DNA from: Pseudophaeobacter arcticus DSM 23566
GTDB lineage: Bacteria > Pseudomonadota > Alphaproteobacteria > Rhodobacterales > Rhodobacteraceae
Length of the DNA: 64,000 bases
Direction: 5' to 3'
NCBI RefSeq assembly: GCF_000473205.1
Contig: NZ_AXBF01000006.1
Location: forward strand, 62,001-126,000
Both the position numbers and the translations under genes were made by a program. The notes below the pieces were generated by a model, which saw nothing but the letters and a program-made list of their open reading frames with translations, ran no database searches and had not been told where the DNA came from. How positions within the stretch are numbered: the stretch's first letter is position 1; every line of letters starts with the position of its first letter. Shown here in pieces: positions 1,098 through 61,499 of this stretch.

Positions 1098-1126
1098 TTG
1101 ATTATTTTTCTAACGTCCGTTAGATT
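1098..1126 (+). promoter_or_regulatory. Promoter with TetR-type operator (site A)
   Basis: The palindrome TCTAACGTCCGTTAGA lies at 1109-1124, with 7-base arms and a 2-base centre. It sits inside a promoter-like pair, TTGATT (1098-1103) and TAGATT (1121-1126), separated by 17 bases. Bound protein would cover the spacer and the -10. The predicted transcript starts about 35 bases before the SDR gene at 1169 and would run through etfA. This copy differs from the other perfect sites by having CG/CG instead of CA/TG next to the centre. Confidence 0.75.
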
Positions 1127-1168
1127 ATCAGACAAAGCCCCGCAATAGGGGAAAAGGGAGGAGGCGTC

Positions 1169-2023
1169 ATGAGTGAGACGCAGTTCGGGTCTTCGCGAGA
1201 AGACCTGTCAAAACGCACAACCGTTTACGCACATGATTTGTTCGCGGGCAAAACCGTCGTTGTAACCGGCGCAGGCGGAGGTTTGGGGCTGGCGATTGCG
1301 GCTCTGTTCGCCAGGCTGGGCGCCAATCTGGCGATCAATGGACGCAACGAGGAAAAGCTGGCCTCGGCCAAAGAGTACCTCGAGAGTTTTGGGGGCAGAG
1401 TTTTCGCCGTGCCCATGACCATCCGTGACCCTGAACAGGTCGAGGATTTTGTCGCTAAGACGAATCAGGAATTCGGCTCCATAGACGTTCTGGTGAACAA
1501 TGCGGGGGGGCAGTTTCCACAGGCTGCGCTGGATTTTTCCCCGAAAGGCTGGACCGCCGTCATTGACACCAACCTCAACGGAACCTGGTGGATGATGCAA
1601 TCCACGACGCGCCACTGGGTTGAGAACAAGCAACCGGGTTCCATCGTAAATATCGTGGCGGATATCTGGCGCGGGATGCCTGGCATCGCTCATACCTGTG
1701 CAGCTCGGGCGGGGGTGATTTACCTGTCCAAATCGGTGGCGGTGGAGTGGGCGCCGCATGATATCCGCGTGAACTGCGTGGCGCCGGGTTGCTGCGAAAG
1801 CAACGGTTTCGGGAACTACCCTCCAGAGGGTGCCGCAACTTTCCAGGATTCCAATCCGATGCGGCACGCCGGGGACGAATGGGATGTCGCTGAAGGTGTT
1901 GTCTATATGGCGGCCAACTCAGGAAAGTTTGTTACCGGTGAAGTTCTGAACATCGACGGTGGGCAGCAATTGTGGGGGGACCCATGGCCAACGGGTCGAC
2001 CGGACCATTTCCTGATTTCCTGA
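1169..2023 (+). CDS. SDR-family enoyl-CoA reductase-like protein
   Basis: Short-chain dehydrogenase/reductase of 284 residues. The NAD(P) loop VVTGAGGGLGLA is near residue 31 and NNAGG near residue 109. The usual catalytic YxxxK is not present: the region reads HTCAARAGVIYLSK, and the C-terminal part has NIDGGQQLW. This pattern resembles peroxisomal trans-2-enoyl-CoA reductase and 2,4-dienoyl-CoA reductase SDRs rather than alcohol dehydrogenases, so an enoyl- or dienoyl-CoA is the likely substrate (family inference). The start follows a strong GGGAGGAGG site. First gene of the operon controlled by site A; its stop overlaps a possible ATG of the next gene (TGATG at 2021-2025). Confidence 0.8.
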   Translation: MSETQFGSSREDLSKRTTVYAHDLFAGKTVVVTGAGGGLGLAIAALFARLGANLAINGRNEEKLASAKEYLESFGGRVFAVPMTIRDPEQVEDFVAKTNQEFGSIDVLVNNAGGQFPQAALDFSPKGWTAVIDTNLNGTWWMMQSTTRHWVENKQPGSIVNIVADIWRGMPGIAHTCAARAGVIYLSKSVAVEWAPHDIRVNCVAPGCCESNGFGNYPPEGAATFQDSNPMRHAGDEWDVAEGVVYMAANSGKFVTGEVLNIDGGQQLWGDPWPTGRPDHFLIS

Positions 2024-2061
2024 TGAAAGCCATGAACCTTAATGGGGACAATAAGATCCAG

Positions 2062-2868
2062 ATGACAACGAAGAATAAAATAGCAGTTGGTACCGATGGC
2101 GGGGCGCTTCTGGAGTGCAACGGGGTCGAACGACGGTTTGGCGGCATCGTTGCTGTCACCGGAGTTGATCTCGTCATTCGGCAAGGTGAAATCTTTGGGC
2201 TTGTCGGACCGAATGGTAGCGGCAAGACAACGCTAACGAACGCAATTACCGGGTTTTATCCGCCAAACGTAGGCACTGTCCGGCTGGCGGGAAAAGACAT
2301 CACGGGCACAGCGCCTCATAAGGTTGCCAAGCTCGGGGTTGCGCGGACGTTCCAGAATCTTGCCCTTTTCAACGGGATGAGCGTTCTGGACAACATCCTG
2401 CTCGGGCGGCACATCCACATGAAACCGGGCGTCTTACGCACGGCGCTTTATTGGTGGGCGGCGCGGCATGAAGAGATCGAGAACCGTAAGATCGTCGAGG
2501 AGGTGATCGAGTTTCTACAGCTTGAAAGCATCCGACATGAGTTGGTCGATGGTCTTCCGATCGGGCTGAAAAAACGGGTCGAACTTGCGCGGGCATTGGT
2601 GGCCGAGCCGCAAATGTTGATACTCGATGAGCCGATGGCAGGCATGAATCAGGAAGAGAAGGGGTATATGTCCCGCTTCATTCTGGATGCCCGTGCCGAA
2701 CGCGGCGTCAGCGTTCTGCTGATCGAGCATCATATGGATGTCATCACCGGCATCTGTGATCGGATGCTGGCGCTTAATTATGGCGAAATGATCGCCAGCG
2801 GCATCCCGAAGGACGTTGTAAAAGACCCGCGGGTCATCGAGGCATATATCGGAGGGTCGCATGACTGA
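2062..2868 (+). CDS. HAAT-type ABC importer ATPase (LivG-like), importer 1
   Basis: Cytoplasmic ATPase of a branched-chain-amino-acid-type importer, 268 residues from the chosen start. Walker A is GPNGSGKTTL, the signature is the unusual IGLKKRVELARAL (no LSGGQ, as is common in this branch), and Walker B is MLILDEPMAGM. The second ATPase is encoded at 6751, the permeases at 4781 and 5672. The start is uncertain: ATG at 2023 overlaps the SDR stop, ATG 2032 is also possible, and 2062 was chosen for similarity of N-terminal length to relatives. An acyl-CoA synthetase follows with an 8-base overlap, linking uptake to activation. Confidence 0.85.
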   Translation: MTTKNKIAVGTDGGALLECNGVERRFGGIVAVTGVDLVIRQGEIFGLVGPNGSGKTTLTNAITGFYPPNVGTVRLAGKDITGTAPHKVAKLGVARTFQNLALFNGMSVLDNILLGRHIHMKPGVLRTALYWWAARHEEIENRKIVEEVIEFLQLESIRHELVDGLPIGLKKRVELARALVAEPQMLILDEPMAGMNQEEKGYMSRFILDARAERGVSVLLIEHHMDVITGICDRMLALNYGEMIASGIPKDVVKDPRVIEAYIGGSHD

Positions 2869-4780
2869 TTTGACGCAAAAACAGTCTTCGGGCGGCGATA
2901 CGATTGGTGCACTGCTGGCGCAAAACGCGTCGCGCCACGGAAAGGATATCGCGCTTCGCGAAAAGGAACGCGGGATCTGGAAAGAAACCACTTGGGCGGA
3001 ATACGCCGAAGAGGTGCTTGCCTGCGCGGCCGGACTTGAAAAAATCGGCGTAAAGCCGGGCAAGGCAGTACTTATTCTGGGCGATAACCGTGCACGGTTG
3101 TACGGCGGCATGCTGGCTGTTTCGTTGCTGGGCGCCTATGCAATGCCTGCCTATCCGGGCGCGACAATCGAAGAACTTCGGCACTTTCTTGGCGAAGTCG
3201 AAATCGTCGCGGCCATCGCCGAAGATCAGGAGCAGGTAGACAAGATCCTGGAACTGAAGGACGCGGGCGCCGAGGGTATCGACCACATCATTTATGATGA
3301 AGCGCGAGGCCTCGGATTCTATGAGGTTGAAGGGCTGATGTCCTGGGATCACCTGATCGAAGTCGGTCAGCACGATCTTAATGAAACCCCGGGCTTGCGC
3401 GAAGATCTCTTTGGTCGGGCAAAGCCCGGCGATCCGGCCATTTTCATGCATTCGTCAGGGACCACGGGAAAACCGAAAGGTATCGTTCTGAGTCAAAAGA
3501 ACGTTCTTGCTGCGGCCAGGAACGGGCATGCAGCGGGTGCATTCGACGACAATGAGGAAATCCTCGCCTATCTGCCGATGGCCTGGGTGGGCGACTTCGC
3601 CATTACCGTCGCGGCGGCGCTGCTCTGCCGGTTCACCGTGAACGTGCCTGAACGTCAGGAAACCGTCGTTCGCGACATGCGCGAAATCGCTCCGACATTC
3701 TATCTGGCGGCGCCGAGAAGCTGGGACCAGATGCTGACGACGATCCAAGTGGGTATCGAGAACTCGACCCCGGTCAAAAAATGGCTGTACCATTTCTTCA
3801 TGGACCGGGCGATTGCCGCCGAGACACGCAAGCTGAATGGCATTAGCGGCGGTGCACTAGAGCCTTTGGGCCGACTTTTGGGCGAGGCGATCGTTTTTGG
3901 TCCGATCAAGGACCAGTTCGGGATGAGTCGTCTGAAGAACGCGTTCACTGGCGGCGAAGCAATCGGCGAAGACACGTTTGTTTTCTACCGAGCCCTGGGA
4001 ATCAAATTGCGCCAACTCTACGGCCAGACCGAAAATAGCGCGATCAATGCGATTCAGTCTCCGGGCGAGGTGCGCCTCCATACCGTTGGCAAACCCGCGC
4101 CTGGCGTCGAGGTGAAAATTGCCGAAGACGGAGAGATCCTGGTGCGTTCGGACAGCGTGTTTGAGGGGTACTTCAACAAACCCGAAGCGACCGCCGAAGC
4201 GCTTGAGGACGGGTGGCTGCATACCGGCGATGCCGGTTATCTGGAGAATGACGGACACCTGGTTGTTCTGGGCCGTGTCTCCGAGGTCATGCATACAGCC
4301 GGAGGCGAGCGTTATGTGCCAAACTACATTGAGAACCGGTTGAAGTTCAGCCCCTATATCAAGGATGCGGCTGTTATCGGTGCCGGCCTGGATGAATTGA
4401 CCGCCATGGTCTGCGTGGATTTCGAGGCAGTGGGACACTGGGCCGAAGTGAACGGCGTGCCTTATGTGTCCTATTCCGATTTGTCGCAACGTGACGAGGT
4501 CGCGGCGCTGCTGCACGGGGCATTCGAACGGGTAAATAAGGCCGTCACAGAGCCGTTGCGCCTGCAACGCTTTGTCAGCCTGCCGAAGGAATTCGACCCG
4601 GACGATGGTGAGATCACGCGGACCCGAAAACTGCGACGCAAGGTTGTACAGGAACGCTATGCCGACGTGATCGCGGCGCTCTACGACGGTTCAAAAGATG
4701 TCCACGTAAGCGCGCAGGTGACTTACGAGACAGGGGAAATAGGGAAGGTCGAAAGAAGCCTTCCCATCAGGGAGGTATAA
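2861..4780 (+). CDS. AMP-forming acyl-CoA synthetase, long-chain type
   Basis: Adenylates a carboxylic acid with ATP and transfers it to CoA; cytoplasmic. 639 residues. The P-loop motif is SSGTTGKPKG (near residue 197), the ATP/substrate motif is RQLYGQTENS, the hinge region is YLENDGHLVVLGR, and the C-terminal lysine region is ITRTRKLRRK. Size and motifs fit the FAA1-like long-chain group. It lies between the importer ATPase and permease genes, with GGAGG before the start and its stop directly touching the next ATG. The same arrangement recurs with the paralogue at 37267, which suggests that the imported acid is trapped as a CoA ester (inference). Confidence 0.9.
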   Translation: MTDLTQKQSSGGDTIGALLAQNASRHGKDIALREKERGIWKETTWAEYAEEVLACAAGLEKIGVKPGKAVLILGDNRARLYGGMLAVSLLGAYAMPAYPGATIEELRHFLGEVEIVAAIAEDQEQVDKILELKDAGAEGIDHIIYDEARGLGFYEVEGLMSWDHLIEVGQHDLNETPGLREDLFGRAKPGDPAIFMHSSGTTGKPKGIVLSQKNVLAAARNGHAAGAFDDNEEILAYLPMAWVGDFAITVAAALLCRFTVNVPERQETVVRDMREIAPTFYLAAPRSWDQMLTTIQVGIENSTPVKKWLYHFFMDRAIAAETRKLNGISGGALEPLGRLLGEAIVFGPIKDQFGMSRLKNAFTGGEAIGEDTFVFYRALGIKLRQLYGQTENSAINAIQSPGEVRLHTVGKPAPGVEVKIAEDGEILVRSDSVFEGYFNKPEATAEALEDGWLHTGDAGYLENDGHLVVLGRVSEVMHTAGGERYVPNYIENRLKFSPYIKDAAVIGAGLDELTAMVCVDFEAVGHWAEVNGVPYVSYSDLSQRDEVAALLHGAFERVNKAVTEPLRLQRFVSLPKEFDPDDGEITRTRKLRRKVVQERYADVIAALYDGSKDVHVSAQVTYETGEIGKVERSLPIREV

Positions 4781-5668
4781 ATGGATTGGGTCTTTCTATC
4801 TGAACTTGCGATCAATGGAGCCTTGACGGGTCTCTTGTATTCGCTCTTCGCTATCGGCCTCGTGCTGATCTACAAAGCGTCCTCGGTGCCCAATCTGTCG
4901 CAGGGTGGGCTGACAATGGTCGGGGCCTATGTGGTTCTTGCCCTTTCACATGACGCGGGTCTGCCGCTGTGGCTGGCCATTCCGCTTGCTGCGGTGATCA
5001 TGTTCGGCCTGGGATTTGGCATTGAGCGTGTTGCCCTGCGCCGTCTCGCGGGCCGTCCGGTCGTCATGATCCTGATGCTGACACTTGGCCTGGACATCTT
5101 CCTGCGGGGGACAACACTTGCAATCTGGGGTGGGACATCCCGTTCGGTTGATTTGGGGGTCAGCTATGAACCGCTGTTCCTGGGCGACATCTTCGTCAGC
5201 CGCATCCATCTTGTCGGTGCCGGTGTTGCGCTCGCACTCTTTGTCGCCTTCATGCTGTTCTTCCGAACCCGGACCGGGATCAAGTTGCGGGCGATCGCGG
5301 ATGATTACATGGCTTCGTGGTCGGTCGGCATTTCGGTTGAGCGCGGCGTAGGGTTGTCCTGGGCACTGGCATCAGTTGTTGCCGTCGCCGCAGGCGTCAT
5401 CTGGGGCGAGATTCAGGGTGTCGATCAGGCGCTGTCGCTGTTGCTTCTGAAGGGTCTGACGGTGGCCGTTCTTGGTGGACTCGACAGTATCCTCGGCGCA
5501 GTGATCGCGGGCATCATTCTGGGCGTCGTCGAAAACGTTGGTGCCGATCTTCTGGATCCGCTTGTCGGAGGCGGAAGCCGCGAGCTTATCGTCGCCGCCG
5601 TGCTCATTCTTACGGTCATGATCCGTCCGCACGGGCTGTTCGGCCGTCACGACATCGAAAGGGTCTAA
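4781..5668 (+). CDS. ABC importer permease LivH-like, importer 1
   Basis: Inner-membrane permease of 295 residues, mostly hydrophobic, with about eight predicted membrane segments. The N-terminus (NGALTGLLYSLFAIGLVLIY) and the glycine-rich segment near the end (GGLDSILGAVIAG) are typical of LivH. The start codon directly follows the stop of the synthetase gene, with GGGAGG upstream. It pairs with the LivM-type permease at 5672. The ligand cannot be predicted from the permease; the neighbouring synthetase points to a carboxylic acid rather than an amino acid. Confidence 0.9.
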   Translation: MDWVFLSELAINGALTGLLYSLFAIGLVLIYKASSVPNLSQGGLTMVGAYVVLALSHDAGLPLWLAIPLAAVIMFGLGFGIERVALRRLAGRPVVMILMLTLGLDIFLRGTTLAIWGGTSRSVDLGVSYEPLFLGDIFVSRIHLVGAGVALALFVAFMLFFRTRTGIKLRAIADDYMASWSVGISVERGVGLSWALASVVAVAAGVIWGEIQGVDQALSLLLLKGLTVAVLGGLDSILGAVIAGIILGVVENVGADLLDPLVGGGSRELIVAAVLILTVMIRPHGLFGRHDIERV

Positions 5669-5671
5669 GGG

Positions 5672-6745
5672 ATGTTTTATAGACTTTCCGGCGTCCATCA
5701 CGCCAACTATGTATCCGATAGTCGTATCTTCAAGGTACCTGCTGACCGGAACCTGGCTGTATTCATCTTCCTGATTGGACTTGCCGCGCCATTCATCATA
5801 CCGTCGCTCTACCTGAACAGTTACATGCTTCCGTGGCTGATCTGGACGGCCGCCGCCCTTGGACTTAACCTGGTGACAGGTTGGGCTGGCCAACTTCACT
5901 TGGGCTATGCTGCGGTCATGGCCGTCGGGGCGTATTCGGCGATCCACGCGGCGCGTTTCGGCGTGCCATGGGAATTCGCCCTGATCATTGGCGGGTTGAC
6001 GTCATCTGTGATCGGCAGCCTGTTCGCCTTTGCCGCATTGCGGGTCAAGGGTCTCTATCTCGCACTCACGACTCTTGCGATGCAATTCGTGATGGACTGG
6101 GTTCTGACCCACTCGCCGGCGATTTCAGGGGGCTCGCACGCATCGCTCCAGTCACCAACTTTGGCGTTTCTTGGGCAGGATATTACCTCTGATACCGGTT
6201 TTTACTATGTCGCCTTCGGATGGTGTGTGTTGGTGACGATCTTCATGCTGAATCTCAAACGCACTGGGCTTGGTCGTGCCCTGGTCGCGGTACGCGAAAA
6301 AGACTTTGCTGCCGCGATCCTGGGTGTGAACAGTTTCTATTACAAGATCCTAGCCTTCGCGACTTCGTCTTTCATCGCGGGCGTCAGTGGTGCTTTGCTT
6401 GTCGCCACCTTCTTCTTTCTTGCCGCGCCGGAGCAGTTTTCGGTCACCGTATCTATCCAGGTTCTTGCGATGGTGATCGTTGGCGGCCTCGGCAGCGTAA
6501 TCGGATCCTATTTCGGTGTTGCTCTGATCCTTCTTGTCCCCGGTTTGGTGAACGGTCTCGTCGTCACGGTGAGCGAGGGGCTTGGTATGCAGATCAATGT
6601 TGAAACGCTCGCTCACATCCCGAATGCGGTCTATGGCGCACTGATCGTCATTATCCTTCTGATCGAACCGCTCGGTTTGGGAAAACTCTACGGCAACATC
6701 AGAGACTATCTGATGGTCTGGCCCTTCGATCAGTTCAAGAAATAA
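5672..6745 (+). CDS. ABC importer permease LivM-like, importer 1
   Basis: Second inner-membrane permease, 357 residues. It carries the LivM hallmarks NLVTGWAGQLHLGYAA near residue 65, RVKGLYLALTTLA near residue 123 and GGLGSVIGSYFG in the C-terminal third. It has a longer N-terminal extension (about 35 residues before the first membrane segment) than amino-acid LivM. Three bases separate it from the LivH-like gene, so the two are co-translated. Forms the heterodimeric channel with the product of 4781. Confidence 0.9.
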   Translation: MFYRLSGVHHANYVSDSRIFKVPADRNLAVFIFLIGLAAPFIIPSLYLNSYMLPWLIWTAAALGLNLVTGWAGQLHLGYAAVMAVGAYSAIHAARFGVPWEFALIIGGLTSSVIGSLFAFAALRVKGLYLALTTLAMQFVMDWVLTHSPAISGGSHASLQSPTLAFLGQDITSDTGFYYVAFGWCVLVTIFMLNLKRTGLGRALVAVREKDFAAAILGVNSFYYKILAFATSSFIAGVSGALLVATFFFLAAPEQFSVTVSIQVLAMVIVGGLGSVIGSYFGVALILLVPGLVNGLVVTVSEGLGMQINVETLAHIPNAVYGALIVIILLIEPLGLGKLYGNIRDYLMVWPFDQFKK

Positions 6746-6750
6746 GGGAA

Positions 6751-7569
6751 ATGCCGATGCAAGAAAAAGTTGAAGCCGAGCACATTCTGTCCATGAACAG
6801 TGTCGAGGTGCTGTACGACAATGTAATGCTGGCGATCAAAGGTGTTTCGGTCAAGGTGCCAAAAGGCGAGATGATCGCGCTCTTGGGCTCGAACGGCGCG
6901 GGCAAAAGCACCACGTTGAAAGCGATCAGCGGTCTTCTGAAGGCAGAGCGCGGACGCATCAGCCGAGGTGAAATAACCTTCCAGGGAACAGAAATAACCG
7001 AAGTGCTCGCGCAAAACCGCGTCGGGATGGGTATCTGTCACGTCATCGAAGGGCGGCGGGTCTTTGAACACCTGACCCCCGACGAGAACCTGACCGCTGC
7101 TGCGCCGCGCGGAATGTCCCGATCGGCGCTGAATGCGGAAAAAGAAAAGATTTACGACTATTTCCCACGACTTGCCGAACGCCGCAATTCGCAAGCAGGC
7201 TATTTGTCTGGTGGCGAGCAACAGATGCTGGCCATCGGCAGGGCGCTGGTGACGCAGCCGAAACTGTTGATGCTCGACGAACCAAGTCTCGGCCTTGCCC
7301 CGTTCCTGGTCGAGGAAATCTTCGGCATCCTGCAAAAGATCAATCAGGAGGAGGGCGTATCCGTCCTGCTGGTGGAGCAGAACGCGCTGGCCGCTCTGGA
7401 GATTGTTTCGCAAGGGTATCTGATTGAGAACGGCCGCGTTGTCATGCACGGCACGGCCGAGGCGCTCAAATCCAACTCCGACATTCAGGAATTTTATCTG
7501 GGCGGCGGAGAAGAAACCGATTTTCACAACGTCAAGCACTACAGCCGACGCAAACGTTGGTTGAGTTGA
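6751..7569 (+). CDS. ABC importer ATPase LivF-like, importer 1
   Basis: Second cytoplasmic ATPase of importer 1, 272 residues. Walker A GSNGAGKSTT, signature LSGGEQQML, Walker B LLMLDEPSLGL and the switch-histidine region replaced by LLVEQNA as in LivF. The C-terminus has a basic tail, KHYSRRKRWLS, that recurs almost unchanged in the LivF of importer 2 (33184), so the two importers share a subfamily. ATG 6751 follows AAGGGAA closely; ATG 6757 is an alternative. Confidence 0.9.
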   Translation: MPMQEKVEAEHILSMNSVEVLYDNVMLAIKGVSVKVPKGEMIALLGSNGAGKSTTLKAISGLLKAERGRISRGEITFQGTEITEVLAQNRVGMGICHVIEGRRVFEHLTPDENLTAAAPRGMSRSALNAEKEKIYDYFPRLAERRNSQAGYLSGGEQQMLAIGRALVTQPKLLMLDEPSLGLAPFLVEEIFGILQKINQEEGVSVLLVEQNALAALEIVSQGYLIENGRVVMHGTAEALKSNSDIQEFYLGGGEETDFHNVKHYSRRKRWLS

Positions 7570-7602
7570 GGTACTAATCAGAAGTTGTTCAGGGAGGAAC
7601 AA

Positions 7603-8841
7603 ATGAAGAAATTTACCAAAGCGTTGGCTGTACTATCCATGTTCGGAGGAGCAGTGTTCAGCACCCAGGCGCTGGCCGAGCCATTCAAGATCGGCATCTG
7701 CTACGACCTCAGCAAAGCCTATACCTTTGCCACGCCGCAGGTTTCGCAGGCCGCGATGGACCTTGCCAAGCTCATCAACATGAAGGGCGGCATCGGTGGC
7801 GAACCGGTCGAAGTCATCGTGCGTGACCACGGGAACGAACCGCAGCGCGGAATCGAGTGCTACTCGAAACTCAGCCGCGAGGGCGTCTTTGTTTTCGATA
7901 CCCTGTCCACTCCGGTGTCTCTGGCTATCCTGCCGCGGGCCATGGAAGACGGGCGTATCCTGATGCAGTCTCTTGTCGGGCGCGGCGATGCCGTTGATGG
8001 CACCGTCTTCGATTGGGTCTATCCGATCGGGCCGACCTATTGGGGACAGGCCGCCAACGATGTCGCCTACATCAAGCAATTGCATGACGGCGATCTGTCA
8101 GATGTGAAGGTCGGGTTTGTTTACTTCGATTATCCCTTCGGGCAGGAGCCGATCGAGATCCTGGAAACCCTGTCCGAGAAAGAGGGTTTCGAGCTTGAAC
8201 TGTACCCCGTGCCACTGCCTGGCAGCGACCAGGCCGGCGTGTGGTCGAAGGTGCGCCGCGACAAGCCCGATCATGTGATCGTCTGGATGCTGGGCGGTGC
8301 CCATGTGGTTGCCTCGAAAGAGATGAAGCGCAATCGCATTCCGATGGACAAATACATCTCGGTCAACTGGCTGAACGAAGTCGATATCGCCAACATCGGT
8401 AAAGAGGCCGCCAAAGGTATCAAGCGCGGGACCAATGTCGTGGGCGGTCAGGATATTGCCCTGTATCAGGAAATCATGGCCGAGCTTTATGACAAGGGCG
8501 AGGGATCCGGCCCGATCGAGAAGACGCAGGACGTTTTCTACAACACCGGGCTGGCCATGTATTCGATCATGTTCGAAGCCGCGCGCAAGGCGGCGGAAGC
8601 CGAGGGGCTGCCGATCACTCCGACATCCTACAAGGCCGGACTGGAGTCGCTTGAGGGCTATGACGCGAACGGGCTGATGGCCCCCGTTACGGTGACGGCC
8701 GAAGATCATGGCGGCGGGGGCAAGACCCGTATCGAAATGTGGGACGGAGAGACTTGGGTGCCGCAAACCGACTGGATCTCTGCGTACACGGACGTTGTGT
8801 GGGGTGTGGTTAAAGAGAGTTCCGCGAAATACGAGCAGTGA
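7603..8841 (+). CDS. ABC importer periplasmic solute-binding protein, copy 1
   Basis: Periplasmic binding protein of the type I (Peripla_BP_6) fold, 412 residues, exported by a Sec signal peptide (MKKFTKALAVLSMFG..., cleavage likely after TQALA near residue 25). ATG 7603 follows GGGAGGAACAA. The mature protein begins EPFKIGICYDLSKAYTF. It is followed 97 bases later by a clearly related copy (8939); both share KEGFELELYPVPLPGSDQAG and many other blocks. The two may deliver different ligands to one permease. A loose GGGGCGG/CCGCCCC inverted repeat lies in the gap (8873-8911). Confidence 0.92.
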   Translation: MKKFTKALAVLSMFGGAVFSTQALAEPFKIGICYDLSKAYTFATPQVSQAAMDLAKLINMKGGIGGEPVEVIVRDHGNEPQRGIECYSKLSREGVFVFDTLSTPVSLAILPRAMEDGRILMQSLVGRGDAVDGTVFDWVYPIGPTYWGQAANDVAYIKQLHDGDLSDVKVGFVYFDYPFGQEPIEILETLSEKEGFELELYPVPLPGSDQAGVWSKVRRDKPDHVIVWMLGGAHVVASKEMKRNRIPMDKYISVNWLNEVDIANIGKEAAKGIKRGTNVVGGQDIALYQEIMAELYDKGEGSGPIEKTQDVFYNTGLAMYSIMFEAARKAAEAEGLPITPTSYKAGLESLEGYDANGLMAPVTVTAEDHGGGGKTRIEMWDGETWVPQTDWISAYTDVVWGVVKESSAKYEQ

Positions 8842-8938
8842 AAGACTGGTAGCAGGAAGGGCGACGCTACGCGGGGCGGCAGCGGCGTTTACAAAGCGGT
8901 ATCACCGCCCCAAACCAAACCAACGGGAGAGAGAAAAC

Positions 8939-10189
8939 ATGAAAGTCAAACAGCACATTAAGGCAGTGGTACTTGCTACTGCGCTGGCAGCAAGCGCGAC
9001 TGTTGCCTCAGCGCAGGACAAGGAGCCGATCCGCTTCGGACTCTGCTTCGACCTCAGTAAATCCTACACGTTCATTTCGCCGCAGGTGGCCCAGGCCGCG
9101 CAGGACCTGGCGATGTACACCAACGAAAATGGCGGTATCGAAGGGCATCCGGTTGAAGTCATCATTCGCGATCACGGCAACGAACCGCAGCGCGGTGTGG
9201 AATGCTACGAGCAGCTCAAGCGCGAAGGCGTTTTCCTTTTCAATTTTCTGTCCACGCCGGTCACGAACGCGGTTCTGCCGCGTGCGATGAAGGACGGCAA
9301 CGTGTTGATGCAGTCCTTTGTTGGCCGCGGTGACGCGGTGGACGGCGAAGTGTTCGAATGGGTTTTCCCGGTCGGTCCGACGTACTGGCAGCAGGCGGCA
9401 AATGACGTTGCCTTCATCAAGGGTCAGATGGGCGGTGACTTGAGCAAGGCGAAGATCGGGTTCATCTATCTGGATTATCCCTTTGGCCAGGAACCGATCG
9501 AGATCCTGAAAACGCTTTCCGAAAAGGAAGGGTTCGAACTGGAGCTGTATCCCGTGCCGCTTCCCGGGTCGGATCAGGCCGGCGCATGGAGCAAAATCCG
9601 CCGCGACAAGCCTGACTACGTGATCAGCTGGCTGCTGGCGGGCGGGCATGTGGTCGCCTCGAAGGAAATGCGCCGCAACCGTTTCCCGATCGACCGCTAT
9701 CTGTCGGTGAACTGGCTGAACGAAGTTGATATCGCCAATATTGGCGCACAAGAGGCGAAAGGCATCCTGCGCGGGACCAACGTGGCCGGTGGCCAGGAAG
9801 TTCCGATCGTCAAGACGATGCTGGACACCTACTATGCCAATGGCAAGGGCAGCGGTCCCGAGAGCCTGGTGCGCGACGTGTACTACAACACGGGCATGGC
9901 GATCTACTCGGCCGGTTTCGAAGCCGCGCGGATCGCAATTACTGAAAACGGTTGGCCGATCACACCGGAAAGCATGAAGAATGCCTATGAATCGATCGAG
10001 GACTTCGATGGAAACGGCATCATGGCCCCGGTTACAGTGACCGACAAAGACCACGGTGGTGGCGGCAAGACTCGGGTCGAACAGTGGAATGGCGAAACCT
10101 GGGTTCCGCTGACCGACTGGAGCGCCGACTATCTCGACGTTGTTTGGGATGTCATCAAGCACAGCTCCGCGACGTTCACCGTCGAATAA
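8939..10189 (+). CDS. ABC importer periplasmic solute-binding protein, copy 2
   Basis: Paralogue of the protein at 7603, 416 residues, with signal peptide MKVKQHIKAVVLATALAAS and likely cleavage after ASAQ or AS-AQ near residue 24. The start was placed at ATG 8939 after GGGAGAGAGAAAAC, because the long open frame upstream lacks a signal sequence. Shared blocks with copy 1 run along the whole length (for example VNWLNEVDIANIG and DHGGGGKTR). Differences concentrate in short segments, as expected after a tandem duplication with divergence of ligand choice (inference). A strong hairpin follows the stop. Confidence 0.92.
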   Translation: MKVKQHIKAVVLATALAASATVASAQDKEPIRFGLCFDLSKSYTFISPQVAQAAQDLAMYTNENGGIEGHPVEVIIRDHGNEPQRGVECYEQLKREGVFLFNFLSTPVTNAVLPRAMKDGNVLMQSFVGRGDAVDGEVFEWVFPVGPTYWQQAANDVAFIKGQMGGDLSKAKIGFIYLDYPFGQEPIEILKTLSEKEGFELELYPVPLPGSDQAGAWSKIRRDKPDYVISWLLAGGHVVASKEMRRNRFPIDRYLSVNWLNEVDIANIGAQEAKGILRGTNVAGGQEVPIVKTMLDTYYANGKGSGPESLVRDVYYNTGMAIYSAGFEAARIAITENGWPITPESMKNAYESIEDFDGNGIMAPVTVTDKDHGGGGKTRVEQWNGETWVPLTDWSADYLDVVWDVIKHSSATFTVE

Positions 10190-10194
10190 GACAG

Positions 10195-10228
10195 AGCTTC
10201 CCCGCGGCAGACATGTCGCGGGGAAGCT
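10195..10228 (+). other. Intra-operon hairpin after solute-binding protein gene
   Basis: Perfect 12-bp stem AGCTTCCCCGCG / CGCGGGGAAGCT with a 10-base loop, starting 6 bases after the stop of the binding-protein gene. Only three T follow, so it is more likely a 3'-stability element or weak attenuator than a full terminator. It would let binding proteins be made in excess over the downstream crotonases and ETF. Confidence 0.6.
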
Positions 10229-10268
10229 TTCCGCAGTTAGATTGTCCCGAGAAAGCGAAGCAGGTATC

Positions 10269-11045
10269 ATGAGCCCCATTGACGTGAAGATCGAAGACGG
10301 AATTGCGACCGTCTGTATCAACCGGCCCGAACGTAAAAACGCGCTTTCCGTGGCGGCGACGAACGGGCTGACCGATGCTTGGGAAAAGATCGAGGCGGAT
10401 GACAGCGTTCGTGTGGCCATTCTGACTTCTGCCGATTGCGGCGTTTTCAGCGCCGGACTGGATCTGAAGGAAGCCACACAAATCGCACGCGACGAGGGTG
10501 TCGATATTCTGACCAAGATGCGCGACCCGTTTCACGAGACCATGCGCGCCTGCAAGAAACCGATCATCGCGGCGATGACAGGGTCGCTGATGGCGGGCGG
10601 CATGATGCTGACCTTGAATTGCGATCTGCGGGTCGGTCTCAAGGGGACCAAGGTCGGTATCACCGAAGTAAAGATCGGTCGTGGATCGCCTTGGGCATCG
10701 CCAGCATTGTCCATGCTGCCGCAGCCCATCCTTATGGAAATAGTTCTGACCGGCGACTTGATGCCGATCGAGCGCCTGCACGAATACGGGTTCACCAACT
10801 ATATCGAAGACACTCCCGATGCTGTCCGCGCACGGGCCTTCGACCTTGCCAAACGCATTGCCAGCGCGGCCCCGCTGTCGGTTGTTGCCGCGAAAGGCAG
10901 TGTTCGCGCAACCATGGATCTGGGCTGTGCCGGTGGCCTGAAAGAGGGCAAGCGCCTGCACGAGGTGGTTTACGCCAGCAACGACGCGATTGAAGGCCCA
11001 AAGGCCTTTGCTGAAAAGCGAGCACCCGTCTGGACCGGGACCTGA
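10269..11045 (+). CDS. Crotonase-fold enoyl-CoA hydratase/isomerase
   Basis: 258 residues, crotonase superfamily. The oxyanion-hole segments are VFSAGLDLKEA (near residue 60) and SLMAGGMMLTLNCDL (near residue 107). The region holding the catalytic glutamates in classical hydratases reads ITEVKIGRGSPWASPAL, so one of the two acids appears replaced; isomerase or another crotonase reaction is possible. The ATG at 10269 is the first start after the hairpin that keeps a normal N-terminus (MSPIDVKIEDGIATV). Twelve bases separate it from the next crotonase. Confidence 0.85.
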   Translation: MSPIDVKIEDGIATVCINRPERKNALSVAATNGLTDAWEKIEADDSVRVAILTSADCGVFSAGLDLKEATQIARDEGVDILTKMRDPFHETMRACKKPIIAAMTGSLMAGGMMLTLNCDLRVGLKGTKVGITEVKIGRGSPWASPALSMLPQPILMEIVLTGDLMPIERLHEYGFTNYIEDTPDAVRARAFDLAKRIASAAPLSVVAAKGSVRATMDLGCAGGLKEGKRLHEVVYASNDAIEGPKAFAEKRAPVWTGT

Positions 11046-11056
11046 TGGAGACTTGA

Positions 11057-11839
11057 ATGACTGAGCTTATTCGCCTGGACAGGGATGGCCCTGTCGGAAT
11101 CCTGCGGTTTCTTCAGCCGACAAAACGCAACCCTTACAGCATCGGGTTCGTCGAAGAACTGGTGGCGCTTCTGCGCGAAGCCGAACGGGACGCTACGATC
11201 CGTGTCGTTGTCATGACCGGCGGCGATCATTTCAGCAGCGGCGGCGATCTCGTTGGATTTCAGGCTGAAATCGCGAAAGGCGCAAGGGCGACATCGGAAA
11301 TGGTCGACCGGGTTCACGATGGCGGACGCGCGGCCTATCTGTTTCGCAAGCCTCTGATTTCTGCTGTATGCGGAGTAGCATTTGGTGCCGGCCTCAGCCT
11401 GGCCCTGTCGGCGGATATCGTCGTAGCGGCCGAAGATGCCCGGCTGTGCGAGGTTTTTGCCCGCATCGGCGGCTGTCCCGACACCGGCTCGAGCTGGCTG
11501 CTTCAGCAACGTGCCGGCGCGGGCGTGGCGCGGATGCTTGTTCTCACAGGTCGTGAAATAGACGGGCGCACCGCCAAGGAACTGCGCGTCGTGGAAGAAT
11601 GCGTACCCGCCGACCAGGTCGAGCAACGCGCTCTGGAAATTGCCCGCGAGATCGCACCACACCCGATGTTCGGTGTCCAGACAACCAAGCGCGTGATGCG
11701 CGCCACGGCGGAGTGCAGCTATCTGGAGGCTCTGGACATCGAACGCGATTCCCAAAGCGTTCTGCTGTGCGCGCATGATTTTCCAGAGGCCATGAAAGCG
11801 TTCTCAGAGAAAAGAAACCCCGAATTCAATGACCGATAG
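11057..11839 (+). CDS. Crotonase-fold enoyl-CoA hydratase/isomerase
   Basis: 260 residues, second crotonase of the pair and only distantly similar to its neighbour. Oxyanion-hole segments are HFSSGGDLVGF near residue 60 and GVAFGAGLSLALSADIVVA near residue 107. The acid-bearing loop reads EVFARIGGCPDTGSSWLL, with an aspartate in place of the second glutamate, as in many isomerase-type members. The C-terminal RNPEFNDR is typical of the family. Same transcript as the importer and ETF genes. Confidence 0.87.
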   Translation: MTELIRLDRDGPVGILRFLQPTKRNPYSIGFVEELVALLREAERDATIRVVVMTGGDHFSSGGDLVGFQAEIAKGARATSEMVDRVHDGGRAAYLFRKPLISAVCGVAFGAGLSLALSADIVVAAEDARLCEVFARIGGCPDTGSSWLLQQRAGAGVARMLVLTGREIDGRTAKELRVVEECVPADQVEQRALEIAREIAPHPMFGVQTTKRVMRATAECSYLEALDIERDSQSVLLCAHDFPEAMKAFSEKRNPEFNDR

Positions 11840-11879
11840 GTCGGTGGAAACCATATCGAAGAACCAAAGGAGAACGTAG

Positions 11880-46967: not shown

Positions 46968-46977
46968 GATTCGCTCC

Positions 46978-49973: not shown

Positions 49974-49999
49974 ATTGTCCTCCGTTCCGGACCGGGCGA

Positions 50000-51160: not shown

Positions 51161-51169
51161 GTTTCGTCC

Positions 51170-51949
51170 TCAGGCCTTGAATTCAGGGGTGCGCCGGTTC
51201 TCGAACGCGTCGAGCCCTTCGGCGACGTCATCACTGGGCAGCGCGCGCACGGCGGCGTCACGTTCCAGCCGCATTTGCTGGTCGATGCCCAGGTCCGTGC
51301 CTTCCCGCGCCAGCCGCTTCATCTCGGCGATACCGGGACGCGAGCGGGTGGTGATTTTCTGACAGTATTCCAACGCGGCCTGATGCAGATCCGCATCCGG
51401 CACGATATAGTTGACCAGACCGGCCTCTTTGGCCGCGCCCGCCGCAAGCCAGCGGGCTGAGAACATCAGGTCGAGCGCCCGGCGCTGCCCCATCAACCGC
51501 GTTAGCCGCTGCGAGCCGCCCCAACCGGGAATCAGTCCGAATTGTGCATGCTGATCGCCAAACTGAGCGGTTTCGGCGGCGAAACACACATCGCAAGCCA
51601 ACATCAGTTCGATCCCGCCGGCCAGACACAACCCCTGCACTGCCACCACGACAGGGAGGGAGGAGGTTTCGAGCGCACGCAGGTTTTCCATGCCAAAGGC
51701 GATGAAGTGATCCAGCGCGGCGGGATCGTTCAATTTACCTTTCACTTCCACCAGATCGGCACCGGTGCAAAAGTTCTTGCCCTGTGCCCGGATGAGGATC
51801 GCCCGGATATCCGGGTTCGCCTCGAATTCCGAACGCGCGGCAGATATGCGCTCATGCACGTCAAGTGACAGGCAATTGAATTTCTCGGGGCGGGCCAGCT
51901 CGATGATGCCGGTGTTGCCCTCGGTCGTGACGATAATGGGATTGCTCAT
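51170..51949 (-). CDS. Enoyl-CoA hydratase
   Basis: 259 residues, classical crotonase. Motifs NFCTGADLVEVKG (near residue 58), VQGLCLAGGIELMLACDVCF (near residue 103) and acid loop QHAQFGLIPGWGGSQRLTRL, which matches the active hydratases better than any other crotonase in the window, though the first Glu appears as Gln/Ala. Stop and start overlap the previous gene by four bases (51946-51949). Second gene of the operon behind site F. Confidence 0.9.
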   Translation of the reverse strand: MSNPIIVTTEGNTGIIELARPEKFNCLSLDVHERISAARSEFEANPDIRAILIRAQGKNFCTGADLVEVKGKLNDPAALDHFIAFGMENLRALETSSLPVVVAVQGLCLAGGIELMLACDVCFAAETAQFGDQHAQFGLIPGWGGSQRLTRLMGQRRALDLMFSARWLAAGAAKEAGLVNYIVPDADLHQAALEYCQKITTRSRPGIAEMKRLAREGTDLGIDQQMRLERDAAVRALPSDDVAEGLDAFENRRTPEFKA

Positions 51950-53127
51950 TTCTGAGCTCCCGTCGCCTTCTTGTCATATTGCAGCGCCATCCGTCCGACC
52001 TTCTCGCGGGCAATCACCAGCTTCTGGATCTGCGCGGTGCCGTCACCGATCTGCAGACCAAGCACATCGTTATAGCGCTGGTGGTGAGGCAGGTCGGTGG
52101 TATAGCCGTAATGTCCGTGCAGGATCAGGCACTGGTGCAGGATCTCGCAGGCGGTTTTGGGCAGGTACCATTTGCACATGGCCGCCTCGGACGTATGCGG
52201 CAGACCACGGTCGCGCAGGTCCAGCGTGTAATAGCAAAGCTGGCGCATCATGGTCAGTTGAGTTTCGGCTTCGGCCAGCGGGAAACTGACGCCCTGATAC
52301 TGCACAATCGGCGCACCAAAGGCTTCGCGTTCCTGGACATAGGCCCAGGTTTCATCCACCGACGCTTGCGCGGCACCCAGGCACTCCAGCCCGATCAGTG
52401 CGCGCGAATAATCAAACCCGGCCATGATCGTTCCGAAGGCGCGATCCTGTTCGGCCATCATGTTTTCGGCCGGCACGAAGACGTCGTCAAAGAACACCGA
52501 CCCACGCCCGACGGGCTTGGTGCCGATGTCGTCAAAATGCGTGCGCTTGATGCCGTCCTGGTTCAGATCGACAAAAAAGGCGCTGACCCCGCGTGAGCCA
52601 CCGTTAGGATCGCCGGTGCGGGCAAAGACGACCGCCGCATCGGCCTGACTGGCAAAACTCATGGATGTCTTTTCACCGTTCAGCCGCCAACCGTTTCCGG
52701 ATTTCTCGGCCTTCAGAATCAGGTTCGCCGCGTCCGATCCGCCGCGCGGCTCTGTCAGACCCAGACCAATGACGGCATCACCCGAAACAACCTTGGGCAC
52801 CCATTTCGCCGCGATGTCGCGGGAGGCATGCTTGGCAACCATTCCGCCCATGAGAGAGCCGAGAAGCTGCACGTAACTTGCGTTGAAATCAGCATAGGCG
52901 ATCTCTTCGACGATCAGCCCTGACGCGACAGAGCTTTCACCCAGTCCGCCGAATTCTTCCGGCAGATCGGCCCCGATCAGACCGAGTGCGCCCATCTCCT
53001 TGATCAGCGCACGATCAAAGGTATGGCCGCTTGCGCGCTCCTGATATGTGGGCGCAAGCTTTTCAGTTGCGAAGCGCTTCGCGGTTTCGCGAAAAGCCTT
53101 CTGATCGTCTGTTGGCTGGAAATGCAT
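51946..53127 (-). CDS. Acyl-CoA dehydrogenase with Glu-to-Gln change in catalytic motif
   Basis: 393 residues. Normal LGLTEPRGGSDAANLILKAE near residue 133 and CLILHGHYGYTTDLPHHQRY in the last domain, but the C-terminal motif reads DGTAQIQKLVIAREKV, with Gln where GTTEIQ or GTNEIM has the catalytic Glu. It may use another base or have a different reaction, for example on an already activated substrate. ATG 53127 follows GGGAGGAGCACCG. First gene of the leftward operon from site F (predicted leader of about 32 bases). Confidence 0.9.
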   Translation of the reverse strand: MHFQPTDDQKAFRETAKRFATEKLAPTYQERASGHTFDRALIKEMGALGLIGADLPEEFGGLGESSVASGLIVEEIAYADFNASYVQLLGSLMGGMVAKHASRDIAAKWVPKVVSGDAVIGLGLTEPRGGSDAANLILKAEKSGNGWRLNGEKTSMSFASQADAAVVFARTGDPNGGSRGVSAFFVDLNQDGIKRTHFDDIGTKPVGRGSVFFDDVFVPAENMMAEQDRAFGTIMAGFDYSRALIGLECLGAAQASVDETWAYVQEREAFGAPIVQYQGVSFPLAEAETQLTMMRQLCYYTLDLRDRGLPHTSEAAMCKWYLPKTACEILHQCLILHGHYGYTTDLPHHQRYNDVLGLQIGDGTAQIQKLVIAREKVGRMALQYDKKATGAQK

Positions 53128-53157: not shown

Positions 53158-53194
53158 TTTCCAAAAATCTAACATTTGTTAGAATACAGATCAA
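53158..53194. promoter_or_regulatory. Bidirectional promoter with TetR-type operator (site F)
   Basis: Perfect palindrome TCTAACATTTGTTAGA at 53168-53183 between divergent operons. Leftward: TTGATC (53194-53189) and TAGATT (53171-53166), 17 bases apart. Rightward: TTTCCA (53158-53163) and TAGAAT (53180-53185), 16 bases apart, with extended -10 TGT. One site would control both the 11-gene operon and the oxidoreductase/ligase pair. Confidence 0.82.
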
Positions 53195-53220: not shown

Positions 53221-55254
53221 ATGGAAAATAAGCCAACGGAGAGCTTCGGGACCATGCTCTCGCCGATCCGCGCAGGCCAGCATACATTGCGAAACCGTGT
53301 CATCATGGGGTCGATGCACACGCGGTTGGAAACCGAGCCTGACGGCATAGCCAAACAGATCGCCTTTTATTCTGAGCGGGCGCGGGGGGAGGCGGCGATT
53401 CTGGTCACCGGCGGGTTTTCCCCCAATGCCGAGGGCATATTCGATCCCGAAGGTCCGCGAATCGACGACCCGGAAGAGGCGCGCAGCCTGCGCCCGATCT
53501 GCGAGGCGGTGCAGGCCGAAGGCAGCCTGATCTGCGCGCAACTCCTCCACGCCGGGCGCTATGCAAAAATCGAAGGTTGTGTGGCCCCGTCGCCGATCCG
53601 TGCACCGATCAACCGTTTCGTCCCGCGTGAAATGTCCGATGCTGACATCCGCCGCACCATCGAGGATTTCGCCGCGGCAGCCGCCAACGCGCAGGCGGCC
53701 GGGTTCGATGGCGTCGAAATCATGGGGTCCGAGGGATACCTGATTAACGAATTCACCGTTACCCACACCAACAAGCGCGAAGACGACTGGGGCGGAAGCG
53801 CCGAGAAGCGCCATCGATTCCCGGTCGAGATCGTGCGCACGGTGCGTGAACGCTGCGGGCCCGACTTTCTGGTCATCTACCGGATTTCCGCCGCCGATCT
53901 GGTCGAGGGCGGCGCGCCCGCCGATGAAATCGCCGCACTGGCGCGCAAGATCGAGGCGGCAGGCGCGGATATTCTGAACACCGGCATCGGCTGGCACGAG
54001 GCGCGCGTGCCGACCATCGCCTATCCGGTGCCGCGCGGCGCCTGGCGCAAGGCAGCGGCCAACGTGAAAGCGGCGGTATCGATTCCGGTGGTCGCCTCGA
54101 ACCGAATCAATACGCCCGAGCTTGCCGAAGACATCCTTGCCTCTGGCGATGCAGACATGATCTCGATGGCGCGCCCGTTTCTGGCCGACCCGCATTTCGT
54201 GAAAAAGGCGCGCGACGGCCGCGCGGACGAAATCAACACCTGCATCGCCTGCAACCAGGCCTGTCTGGATTTCATCTTTTCGGACCGGCCTGTCGGGTGT
54301 CTGGTCAACCCACGCGCCGGGCGTGAAACCGAATTTCGGGACACGCCAACTGACGCGCCGCAGAAAGTGGCTGTGGTTGGCGGCGGCGCGGCGGGCCTGG
54401 CCACGGCGGCCGAGGCGGCGCGGCTGGGCCACGATGTCACGCTGTTCGAAGCGCAGAACAAACTGGGCGGCCAGCTGAATCTGGCCCGCGCGGCGCCGGG
54501 CAAGGACGAATTCGACGAAACCCTGCGGTATTATGCCGGTCAGCTGAGAAAGCACGGGGCCAAACAGCGGCTGGGGCAGCGGGCCGACGTGAACGATCTT
54601 GACGGTTTCGACCATGTGGTTATCGCCACAGGGGTCACGCCGCGTATTCCCGACCTGCCGGGTATCGACCATCCCAGCGTCGCGACTTATGCGGAAATCC
54701 TGTCCGGCGACCGCGAGGCGGGCGACCGTGTCGTGGTGATGGGGGCCGGTGGCATTGGCCATGATGTGGCCGAATTCCTGGTGACCGAACCCGCCGAGGC
54801 CGCCAACACAGACGCCTTTTGCGAAACATGGGGCGTGGACCCCGAGTTTGCCACCCCGGGCGCCCTGGCTGGCGATCCATTGGCACCGAAACCGTCGCGA
54901 CGCAAAGTCGTTATGCTTCAGCGCAAGACAGCAAAACCGGGCGCGGGGCTTGGAGTTTCAACAGGGTGGATTCTGCGCAACGCGCTGCGCAAACACGGGG
55001 TCGAGGCGATGGGCGGGGTGACCTATGACCGCATCGACGACGCGGGGCTGCATATCCTCACGGACGAAAGCCCAATGATCATCTCGGCCGATACGATTGT
55101 GCTATGCACCGGCCAGGAGCCGGAACGCGCCCTGGCAGAGGAGCTTGCCGCCCGCGGTGTCACGGTTACGATGATCGGCGGGGCAAAGGAGGCCGCCGAA
55201 CTTGATGCTCTGCGCGCCATTGATGAAGGGGTGCGTCTGGCGCAAAGTCTCTGA
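53221..55254 (+). CDS. 2,4-dienoyl-CoA reductase-type FMN/Fe-S/FAD oxidoreductase (old yellow enzyme family)
   Basis: 677 residues. N-terminal FMN-binding TIM barrel (LSPIRAGQHTLRNRVIMGSM at the start, YLINEFTVTHTNKREDDWGG near residue 175), then a 4Fe-4S cluster motif C341xxCxxxC with a fourth Cys at 360, then an FAD/NAD(P) domain beginning VAVVGGGAAGLATAAEAARL near residue 380. This is the layout of bacterial 2,4-dienoyl-CoA reductase and trimethylamine dehydrogenase. Reduction of an unsaturated acyl-CoA or enone is likely. ATG 53221 lies 9 bases after GAGGAGG; ATG 53212 is too close. Confidence 0.93.
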   Translation: MENKPTESFGTMLSPIRAGQHTLRNRVIMGSMHTRLETEPDGIAKQIAFYSERARGEAAILVTGGFSPNAEGIFDPEGPRIDDPEEARSLRPICEAVQAEGSLICAQLLHAGRYAKIEGCVAPSPIRAPINRFVPREMSDADIRRTIEDFAAAAANAQAAGFDGVEIMGSEGYLINEFTVTHTNKREDDWGGSAEKRHRFPVEIVRTVRERCGPDFLVIYRISAADLVEGGAPADEIAALARKIEAAGADILNTGIGWHEARVPTIAYPVPRGAWRKAAANVKAAVSIPVVASNRINTPELAEDILASGDADMISMARPFLADPHFVKKARDGRADEINTCIACNQACLDFIFSDRPVGCLVNPRAGRETEFRDTPTDAPQKVAVVGGGAAGLATAAEAARLGHDVTLFEAQNKLGGQLNLARAAPGKDEFDETLRYYAGQLRKHGAKQRLGQRADVNDLDGFDHVVIATGVTPRIPDLPGIDHPSVATYAEILSGDREAGDRVVVMGAGGIGHDVAEFLVTEPAEAANTDAFCETWGVDPEFATPGALAGDPLAPKPSRRKVVMLQRKTAKPGAGLGVSTGWILRNALRKHGVEAMGGVTYDRIDDAGLHILTDESPMIISADTIVLCTGQEPERALAEELAARGVTVTMIGGAKEAAELDALRAIDEGVRLAQSL

Positions 55255-60608: not shown

Positions 60609-60642
60609 TGGTCGCAGCGCCATGTAACAGGCGCTGCGACCA
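60609..60642 (-). terminator. Hairpin after SDR gene
   Basis: Perfect 13-bp stem TGGTCGCAGCGCC / GGCGCTGCGACCA with an 8-base loop, 4 bases downstream of the leftward SDR stop. No T-run follows. It may end most transcription from site G and leave the synthetase gene at 60534 on its own promoter or on read-through. Confidence 0.6.
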
Positions 60643-60646
60643 GCGG

Positions 60647-61408
60647 TTAACCGTGCATGGACAAGCCGCCCGAAACCGATATCACCTGGCCGGTGATGAA
60701 TCCGGCGTCATCCGACGACAGGAAGCAGATGATGCCAGGGTAATCTGTCGGCTGCGCCAGGCGCTTCATCGGAATTGCCCGCTTGAGACCTTCGGCAATT
60801 TTTTCACCAGCTTCGCCCTGGGCAACCTGTGCGAACAGCGGCGTATCGGTCGGACCGGGGGCGACGGCGTTCAATTGAATACCTTTGCGTGCAAGTTCGC
60901 GCGCTACAGTCTTGGTGAACGATATGATGCCGCCCTTGCAGGCCGAATAGACAGCCTCGCCCGATGACCCGACGCGACCAGCGTCGGACGCGATATTGAC
61001 AACGCGGCCACCACCGTTCTTCACCATGCCCGGAAGCACCGCGTGGTGCATGTTCAGCGGACCGTATAGATTGATGTCGATGACCTTTTTCCAGAGATCG
61101 ACATCTGTATCGAGGAACGGTTTAATCACGTCCCAGCCGGCGTTGTTCACCAGCGCATCGATCGGGCCTCCGGCCTCGAATTCGGCCACCGCCTTGTCGA
61201 CCTGGGCGTGGTCGGTGATATCTACCTTGAAGGCCTGCGCCTTTCCGCCAGCCTCGGTGATCAGTCGGACAGTTTCTTCCGCCCCATCCTTGTTCAGATC
61301 GAAAACGGCGACTTCGGCACCTTCTTCGCCGAACCGTCCGCAAACCGCGCGACCAATGCCGCTGCCGCCGCCGGTCACGATGACCCGTTTCCCACTCAAC
61401 CCTCGCAT
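60647..61408 (-). CDS. SDR-family 3-hydroxyacyl-CoA dehydrogenase (BadH-like)
   Basis: 253 residues. VIVTGGGSGIGRAVCGRFGE, aspartate in VFDLNKDG (NAD preference), NNAGWDVIKPFLDTD, IASDAGRVGSSGEAVYSACK with catalytic Ser, Tyr and Lys, and GQVISVSGGLSMHG at the end. It resembles 2-hydroxycyclohexanecarboxyl-CoA dehydrogenase BadH. ATG 61408 follows GGAGGACCTCCTT; the frame extends further upstream to the operator, but without a ribosome site. Divergent from the regulator gene and controlled by the same operator (site G). Confidence 0.92.
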   Translation of the reverse strand: MRGLSGKRVIVTGGGSGIGRAVCGRFGEEGAEVAVFDLNKDGAEETVRLITEAGGKAQAFKVDITDHAQVDKAVAEFEAGGPIDALVNNAGWDVIKPFLDTDVDLWKKVIDINLYGPLNMHHAVLPGMVKNGGGRVVNIASDAGRVGSSGEAVYSACKGGIISFTKTVARELARKGIQLNAVAPGPTDTPLFAQVAQGEAGEKIAEGLKRAIPMKRLAQPTDYPGIICFLSSDDAGFITGQVISVSGGLSMHG

Positions 61409-61471
61409 AAGGAGGTCCTCCTTCTCCAATAGACCTTCGTAGAGAACTTGATTCGGTACGTTCTCCTTCAT

Positions 61472-61499
61472 ATTCTAACATTTGTTAGAATTATTGCAA
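61472..61499. promoter_or_regulatory. Bidirectional promoter with TetR-type operator (site G)
   Basis: Perfect palindrome TCTAACATTTGTTAGA at 61474-61489, identical to sites C and F. Leftward: TTGCAA (61499-61494) and TAGAAT (61477-61472), 16 bases apart. Rightward: extended -10 TGTTAGAAT at 61483-61491 with no clear -35. It lies between the SDR gene and the tandem TetR gene, as expected for an autoregulated repressor. Confidence 0.82.

Follow-up and report, generated by a model that had tools for sequence, protein, structure and literature searches.

The 64,000-nucleotide stretch of Pseudophaeobacter arcticus DSM 23566 analyzed here (the window; positions 62001-126000 of contig C3 within a 5.05 Mb assembly) carries importer and catabolic operons ahead of which a single 16-bp palindrome, TCTAACANNTGTTAGA, recurs, together with a gene, at 61499-62866, for a protein with two TetR units in one chain. 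Does this tandem TetR protein read the palindrome, and if so, how would one chain with two unlike halves engage a symmetric site? We consider it likely that the tandem protein has TCTAACANNTGTTAGA as its operator; it would fold as a single-chain pseudo-dimer and repress the importer and catabolic operons along with its own gene.

An initial annotation of the window had placed the palindrome at seven positions, all of them intergenic. By pattern search, we recovered the same seven coordinates, and these are all the matches with at most three mismatches in the window; 100 shuffled versions of the window gave a mean of 0.67 such matches and a maximum of 3, and never 7. Five copies are exact (18644, 22305, 40203, 53168 and 61474), and those at 1109 (TCTAACGTCCGTTAGA) and 15048 (AATAACAGATGTTAGA) each have two mismatches. 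As the CP104101.1 plasmid of Phaeobacter sp. G2 is 99.6% identical to window positions 40001-63800 and collinear with the window, within 3 bases, at eight sampled points, we transferred its annotation to obtain gene coordinates. By these, all seven sites lie between genes. The same is true of five additional sites (at most three mismatches) in the rest of CP104101.1 80000-199094, making 12 of 12; the coding share of CP104101.1 85020-178453 is 94.9%.

The initial annotation had also called for a whole-genome search and named random copies as the danger. These were not seen: there are 10 exact copies in the genome, six on C3 and four on a second contig, C2, with none on the four other contigs, and C2 and C3 together make up 8.6% of the genome. 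On C3, the sixth exact site lies 1.35 kb before the window, and weaker sites follow at 67.9, 75.0, 75.1 and 77.4 kb in window coordinates. All four one-mismatch sites in the genome are on C2 or C3, as are all but three of the nine two-mismatch sites. At three mismatches the pattern loses its genome-wide specificity, giving 69 matches vs 189 for a reversed control pattern. Matches at this level within genes, namely in thl_138897 (C2, G189), in livK_A of Nitratireductor and in the tandem gene of G044, look like chance. Another match, at G246c 11933, owes its apparent position inside acd_116105 only to an extrapolated start and in fact precedes a start codon. The cluster has a counterpart on C2 (1-80000, L016-L019), which encodes a tandem TetR of its own (77% identical) and carries operators at corresponding genes, suggesting that the two tandem regulators should cross-regulate.

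Conservation was assessed in our own C2 and C3 contigs, seven genomes of the family, Roseibium Sym1, Nitratireductor thuwali, Sulfitobacter BSw21498, Polaromonas JS666, and 65 loci from a genome scan, annotated by tblastn with C3 proteins as queries. The counts cover 89 stretches (L065-L129, C2 and C3, the seven family genomes and the four named plasmids). The scan itself yielded 76 loci in its best 80 stretches; the survey of operators at the regulator gene was made without L117, L130 and L133-L140, the ‘other TetR’ group in the permuted-palindrome count consisted of L131-L140, and L117 and L130 entered neither. Across 11 target classes, the C2 and C3 copies included, an operator within two mismatches is present in 206 of 227 upstream regions, vs 30 of 976 for non-target genes. 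Absence of the motif from orthologous operons in relatives, the observation that the initial annotation had expected to count against a common operator, is thus not what we find. Of 209 permuted half-sites, the 40 used in this test each gave a motif present in at most one of the 227 regions. Among the 30 non-target sites, 18 are in loci with a single-domain TetR (L118-L124), six at atuA promoters and three at a Sneathiella hydratase promoter, and by their setting most of the 30 look like additional real sites. In the 987 kb around 52 tandem genes, TCTAACANNTGTTAGA has 35 exact copies, and none of the 209 permuted palindromes is present.

The motif holds its distance to orthologous genes while the flanks drift. 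Operator and start codon are separated by 10 bp in 42 promoters of the tandem gene, by 38 bp in 20 of 35 promoters of an old-yellow-enzyme gene, and by 53 bp in 9 of 13 promoters of a ChsH2-like gene. For the 9 of 11 target classes with at least five distinct rows, two random sequences of one class agree at 84-100% of motif positions, 35-78% of the two central positions and 37-67% of flanking positions. Within two mismatches, the operator is found at all orthologous promoters of the 53168 (35/35), 22305 (19/19) and 18644 (13/13) classes and at 7 of 8 in the 40203 class. The 1109 class is weaker (8 of 15 within two mismatches, 9 of 15 within three), and the 15048 class is degenerate throughout (0 of 9 within one, 4 of 9 within two and 8 of 9 within three). 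The candidate regulon proposed in the initial annotation, comprising both importers, the carboxylase and retro-aldolase operons, electron transfer flavoprotein (ETF) and the regulator itself, is backed by this conservation. At the acd/ech promoter outside the window (C3 129911, window 67911), the operator has a one-base asymmetry, TCTAACAT[AG]TGTTTGA, in 39 of the 39 orthologous promoters counted, possibly a sign of oriented binding by two unlike helix-turn-helix motifs.

The palindrome is also tied to the tandem gene across genomes. An exact site is present in 13 of 295 genomes of the family by pattern search; eight of the 295 have four or more, and all eight of these encode a tandem TetR, which is found in nine genomes overall at E 1e-60. 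An operator within two mismatches lies near the start of the tandem gene in 49 of 52 tandem loci. Together with the same operator beside single-domain relatives, described below, the co-occurrence and the site at the gene's own start point to the tandem protein as the probable reader.

This 455-aa protein contains PF00440 twice (125.3 bits against a gathering threshold of 24) and PF17932 twice, with repeat 1 at about residues 26-225 and repeat 2 at about 242-445. The profile matches place it in the TetR/AcrR family with a double TetR family regulator (TFR) architecture, that is, with two complete TetR units in one chain. It scores 156.9 bits against a cut-off of 150 for the ScbR family NF041196, a score summed over the two repeats; the NCBIfam cut-offs for FadR, PsrA and KstR (200, 300 and 280) are not reached (117.8, 80.4 and 46.1 bits). 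In its AlphaFold model (pLDDT 84.1, pTM 0.83), which matches Mce3R over 364 residues by structure comparison, the two TetR units are predicted to fold intramolecularly as one TFR. The fold of the second repeat matches AibR and FadR, both solved with acyl-CoA ligands according to their structure titles.

The two repeats are 43.7% identical, their DNA-binding parts agree at 26 of 49 positions, and the recognition-helix core AGS[IV]YYHF is common to both halves with few exceptions. Each half is 46-53% identical to the single-domain proteins of L118-L123. In an unrooted tree of 54 rows, without Mce3R, the N and C halves are split from the single-domain proteins (99/97) and group with the same single-domain relatives. 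An earlier tree with three outgroup TetRs was distorted by branches 8-10 long; the tree used here omits these outgroups along with further rows that were long or redundant. A protein alignment took in 44 sequences, with 120 listed out of 270. As the tree is unrooted, it does not tell internal duplication from fusion of close paralogues. In L102, L104, L106 and L107, whose tandem genes are 53-55% identical, the scan match extends to about 2 kb and perhaps spans a second TetR gene behind the tandem gene, as annotated in L040.

The single-domain TetRs of L118-L124 (Bradyrhizobium-type; 48-53% identity) have the same exact operator at related genes. They are 185-197 aa long in six of seven loci (the L124 frame is 278), and are thus expected to act as homodimers; the contigs that carry them range from 6 kb to 1.3 Mb. 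On Polaromonas JS666 plasmid 2, which encodes a single-domain homologue, CCTAACTAGTGTTAGG precedes livG (L041 6780).

If the tandem protein reads the palindrome, it need not do so as a single chain. Two chains could instead pair N with N and C with C, forming two symmetric heads that each sit on a palindrome of their own. Such pairing is one of two models considered for Mce3R, whose chains form a C2 homodimer with one duplex per protomer (PMC11667970). In keeping with this idea, three of the four plasmids examined carry a pair of operators, spaced by 81-83 bp, at the ltp promoter (C3 137030 and 137112, that is, window 75030 and 75112, outside the window; L038 36428/36509; L039 38450/38533), with only one in C2, and the paired sites would suit bridging by two chains. 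However, there is one operator at most promoters, and the DNA-binding parts of the halves differ, yet we find a single operator class rather than two. Moreover, in the model of the monomer alone, the two repeats are already arranged as in Mce3R along almost the whole chain. We consider pairing between chains an unlikely basis for operator recognition.

It is less probable still that the true reader is TetR2, a single-domain paralogue encoded at CP104101.1 91205-91834 and again on C2, or TetR2 and the tandem protein together. The start of TetR2 has a closely similar palindrome of its own (CCTAACAGGCGTTAGT on C3 and GCTAACAGGTGTTAGT on C2), which makes some cross-reading by TetR2 likely. Nevertheless, sites of the TetR2 class depart from the motif, mostly at the outer base pair, with 0 of 16 within one mismatch and 11 of 16 within two, and because of this departure TetR2 was set aside as sole reader. 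Nor do the TetR2-type loci L125 and L127-L129 have exact sites, which instead follow the tandem gene across genomes. In these loci, the single-domain genes of the TetR2 type have a variant operator, TCTAACGTTAGTTAGA, 4-16 bp before the extrapolated start (L125 3714, L127 9949, L128 5380 and L129 9928). Exact copies of TCTAACGTTAGTTAGA are absent from the 295 genomes.

In the preferred reading, one tandem chain on one palindrome, the two TetR repeats would pack against each other as the subunits of a TetR homodimer do, such that their recognition helices, one helical turn apart, would each read one of the identical half-sites. Once bound, the protein would occlude the -35/-10 region in the majority of these promoters, shutting off the importer, CoA-activation, beta-oxidation, carboxylation and retro-aldol operons and the regulator's own gene, and would probably be released by an acyl-CoA intermediate of the pathway. 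The nature of the inducer is a guess from the acyl-CoA ligands of AibR and FadR. Six of the seven window operators overlap a sigma-70-like promoter match, of which the window has 21; against this, such overlap is shared by 15% of intergenic 16-mers, and it is partly intrinsic, given the likeness of TTAGA with a following AT to a -10 box. The operators lie 10-55 bp before most start codons, and therefore repression by occlusion is the likeliest mode. Some TetR proteins activate, and FasR, named an activator by NCBIfam, is among the sub-cutoff matches of the tandem protein. Given operators so close to most starts and overlapping predicted -10 boxes, we find it improbable to a high degree that the tandem protein activates these promoters.

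Several further observations weigh against assigning the palindrome to the tandem protein. The ninth genome with the gene, G061, lacks an exact site; its homologue (54%) contains one internal TGA, close to the end of a contig. Conversely, five genomes have a single exact TCTAACATATGTTAGA without a tandem gene; as the reversed control pattern is likewise present once in each of five genomes, a lone copy proves nothing. Three of the 52 tandem loci lack an operator within two mismatches near the gene (none in L101, three mismatches in L115 and L116), and unrelated GC-rich palindromes recur, one with a TGCGCGA half-site 22 times in the tandem loci. The conservation figures take the best match and omit rows with more than three mismatches, which favours the motif. 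Furthermore, the promoters come from related plasmids, the loci partly overlap the seven genomes, and some genomes appear twice, so that the counts are not independent. The palindrome is thus not exclusive to the tandem gene, yet multiple copies track it.

In four of the five lone-copy genomes, TCTAACATATGTTAGA is flanked on one side by an RND-permease-like stretch (25-28% by tblastn) and on the other by a TetR-type frame, judged by eye from its start (L141 4085, L142 3781, L143 3988 and L144 3834); the fifth, G077, has a different setting. It is hardly credible that the palindrome serves as a generic promoter-proximal element, or as the site of an unrelated regulator without any link to the tandem protein, since all eight multi-copy genomes have the tandem gene and permuted palindromes are absent or nearly so.

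The seven candidate operators of the window, to which no strand is assigned, would serve the following genes (by annotation unless noted). The site at 61474..61489 (TCTAACATTTGTTAGA), found by pattern search and annotation, is probably autoregulatory; it lies between the tandem regulator (61499..62866, + strand, by Pfam, with the start codon of the CP104101.1 annotation) and a divergent short-chain dehydrogenase/reductase (SDR) gene (60647..61408, -; annotation, and Pfam from a longer start), which heads an SDR, acyl-CoA synthetase and NmrA-like run. At 53168..53183, TCTAACATTTGTTAGA separates a FadH/old-yellow-enzyme-type oxidoreductase (53221..55254, +; annotation and profile search) from the acyl-CoA dehydrogenase at the head of the carboxylase operon (40260..53127, -; annotation and profile search), which encodes acyl-CoA dehydrogenases, a hydratase, a CoA ligase, a two-subunit biotin carboxylase, HMG-CoA-lyase-like, SDR and citryl-CoA-lyase-like proteins, and MaoC. 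Importer A has its site at 40203..40218 (TCTAACAGATGTTAGA), 155 bp upstream of livG; the run comprises LivG, CoA ligase, LivH, LivM, LivK, LivF and SDR genes (32382..40048, -). At 22305..22320, TCTAACAATTGTTAGA marks an internal promoter ahead of a transglutaminase-like gene (assigned also by Pfam), followed by MaoC, two acyl-CoA dehydrogenases, a hydratase and a phenylacetate-CoA-ligase-like gene (22337..27834, +). The copy at 18644..18659 (TCTAACATTTGTTAGA) stands between two family III CoA transferases (16278..18607, -; Pfam for the first) and the retro-aldolase run of ChsH2-like OB-fold, Ltp2-like thiolase-fold, MaoC hydratase and CoA transferase genes (18712..22272, +; PF01796, PF12172, PF22691, PF01575 and PF02515). 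The degenerate operator AATAACAGATGTTAGA at 15048..15063 is between a thiolase (-) and an acyl-CoA dehydrogenase (+), and the variant TCTAACGTCCGTTAGA at 1109..1124 is ahead of the importer B and ETF run (1169..13564, +), with an SDR, LivGHMFK and a second LivK, a CoA ligase, two hydratases, and ETF beta and alpha.

Outside the window, an AtuA gene (PF07287, 477.7 bits) follows the operator at window 67911. The wider cluster contains three biotin-dependent carboxylase sets, one of which is located, together with BioY, behind TetR2 and its own site; it also includes an HMG-CoA-lyase-like gene and ChsH2/Ltp2-like genes. This gene content suggests that the cluster probably catabolizes an isoprenoid-like or branched acid.

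The double-TFR architecture as such is already known, as 204 predicted double TFRs in actinomycetes are cited in the Mce3R paper (PMC11667970). Mce3R of Mycobacterium tuberculosis (PDB 9b7y) shares the architecture and predicted fold of the tandem protein. However, its operator is non-palindromic, whereas the candidate operator here is palindromic. The two halves of Mce3R also come from different TFR subgroups (PMC11667970), whereas those of the tandem protein have the recognition-helix core in common and group with the same single-domain relatives. Some of the 204 may also have a symmetric operator. In engineered single-chain Tet transregulators, a linker connects two TetR units head to tail, and the chain folds intramolecularly and binds tetO (PMC1797012); the tandem protein would work likewise. 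Those chains were made by design to prevent heterodimers (PMC1797012); the tandem protein is natural and its halves have diverged to the identity given above. The acyl-CoA-related TetRs AibR, FadR and KstR2 are single-domain chains, unlike the fused protein. Among the matches listed from the open-licence literature, Mce3R and the engineered Tet chains were the only double or fused TetRs, and we recognized no description of the catabolic cluster from titles and the beginnings of abstracts. The LiuQ motif was not found in the accessible part of PMC5343134.

Why would a homodimeric repressor become a single chain? We tentatively suggest, as a possibility we would not yet favour, that the tandem protein is a natural single-chain TetR, in which a homodimeric repressor was fused once and kept its symmetric operator, and that selection favoured it for two reasons: fusion prevents mixed dimers with paralogues encoded on co-resident plasmids (two such contigs are present in this genome, with two tandem regulators and two single-domain cousins), and it allows the two ligand pockets to diverge, each sensing a different pathway intermediate. 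Two chains together may, in addition, bridge paired operators. The one solved double TFR, which sits on an asymmetric operator, leaves the reason for fusion open. A natural series of single-domain repressor, fused repressor and the same operator would offer a test of what drives the fusion of a homodimeric transcription factor into one chain. For the marine catabolic plasmid itself, the result is a clean candidate regulon with a readable operator, from which the inducer and substrate can be sought.

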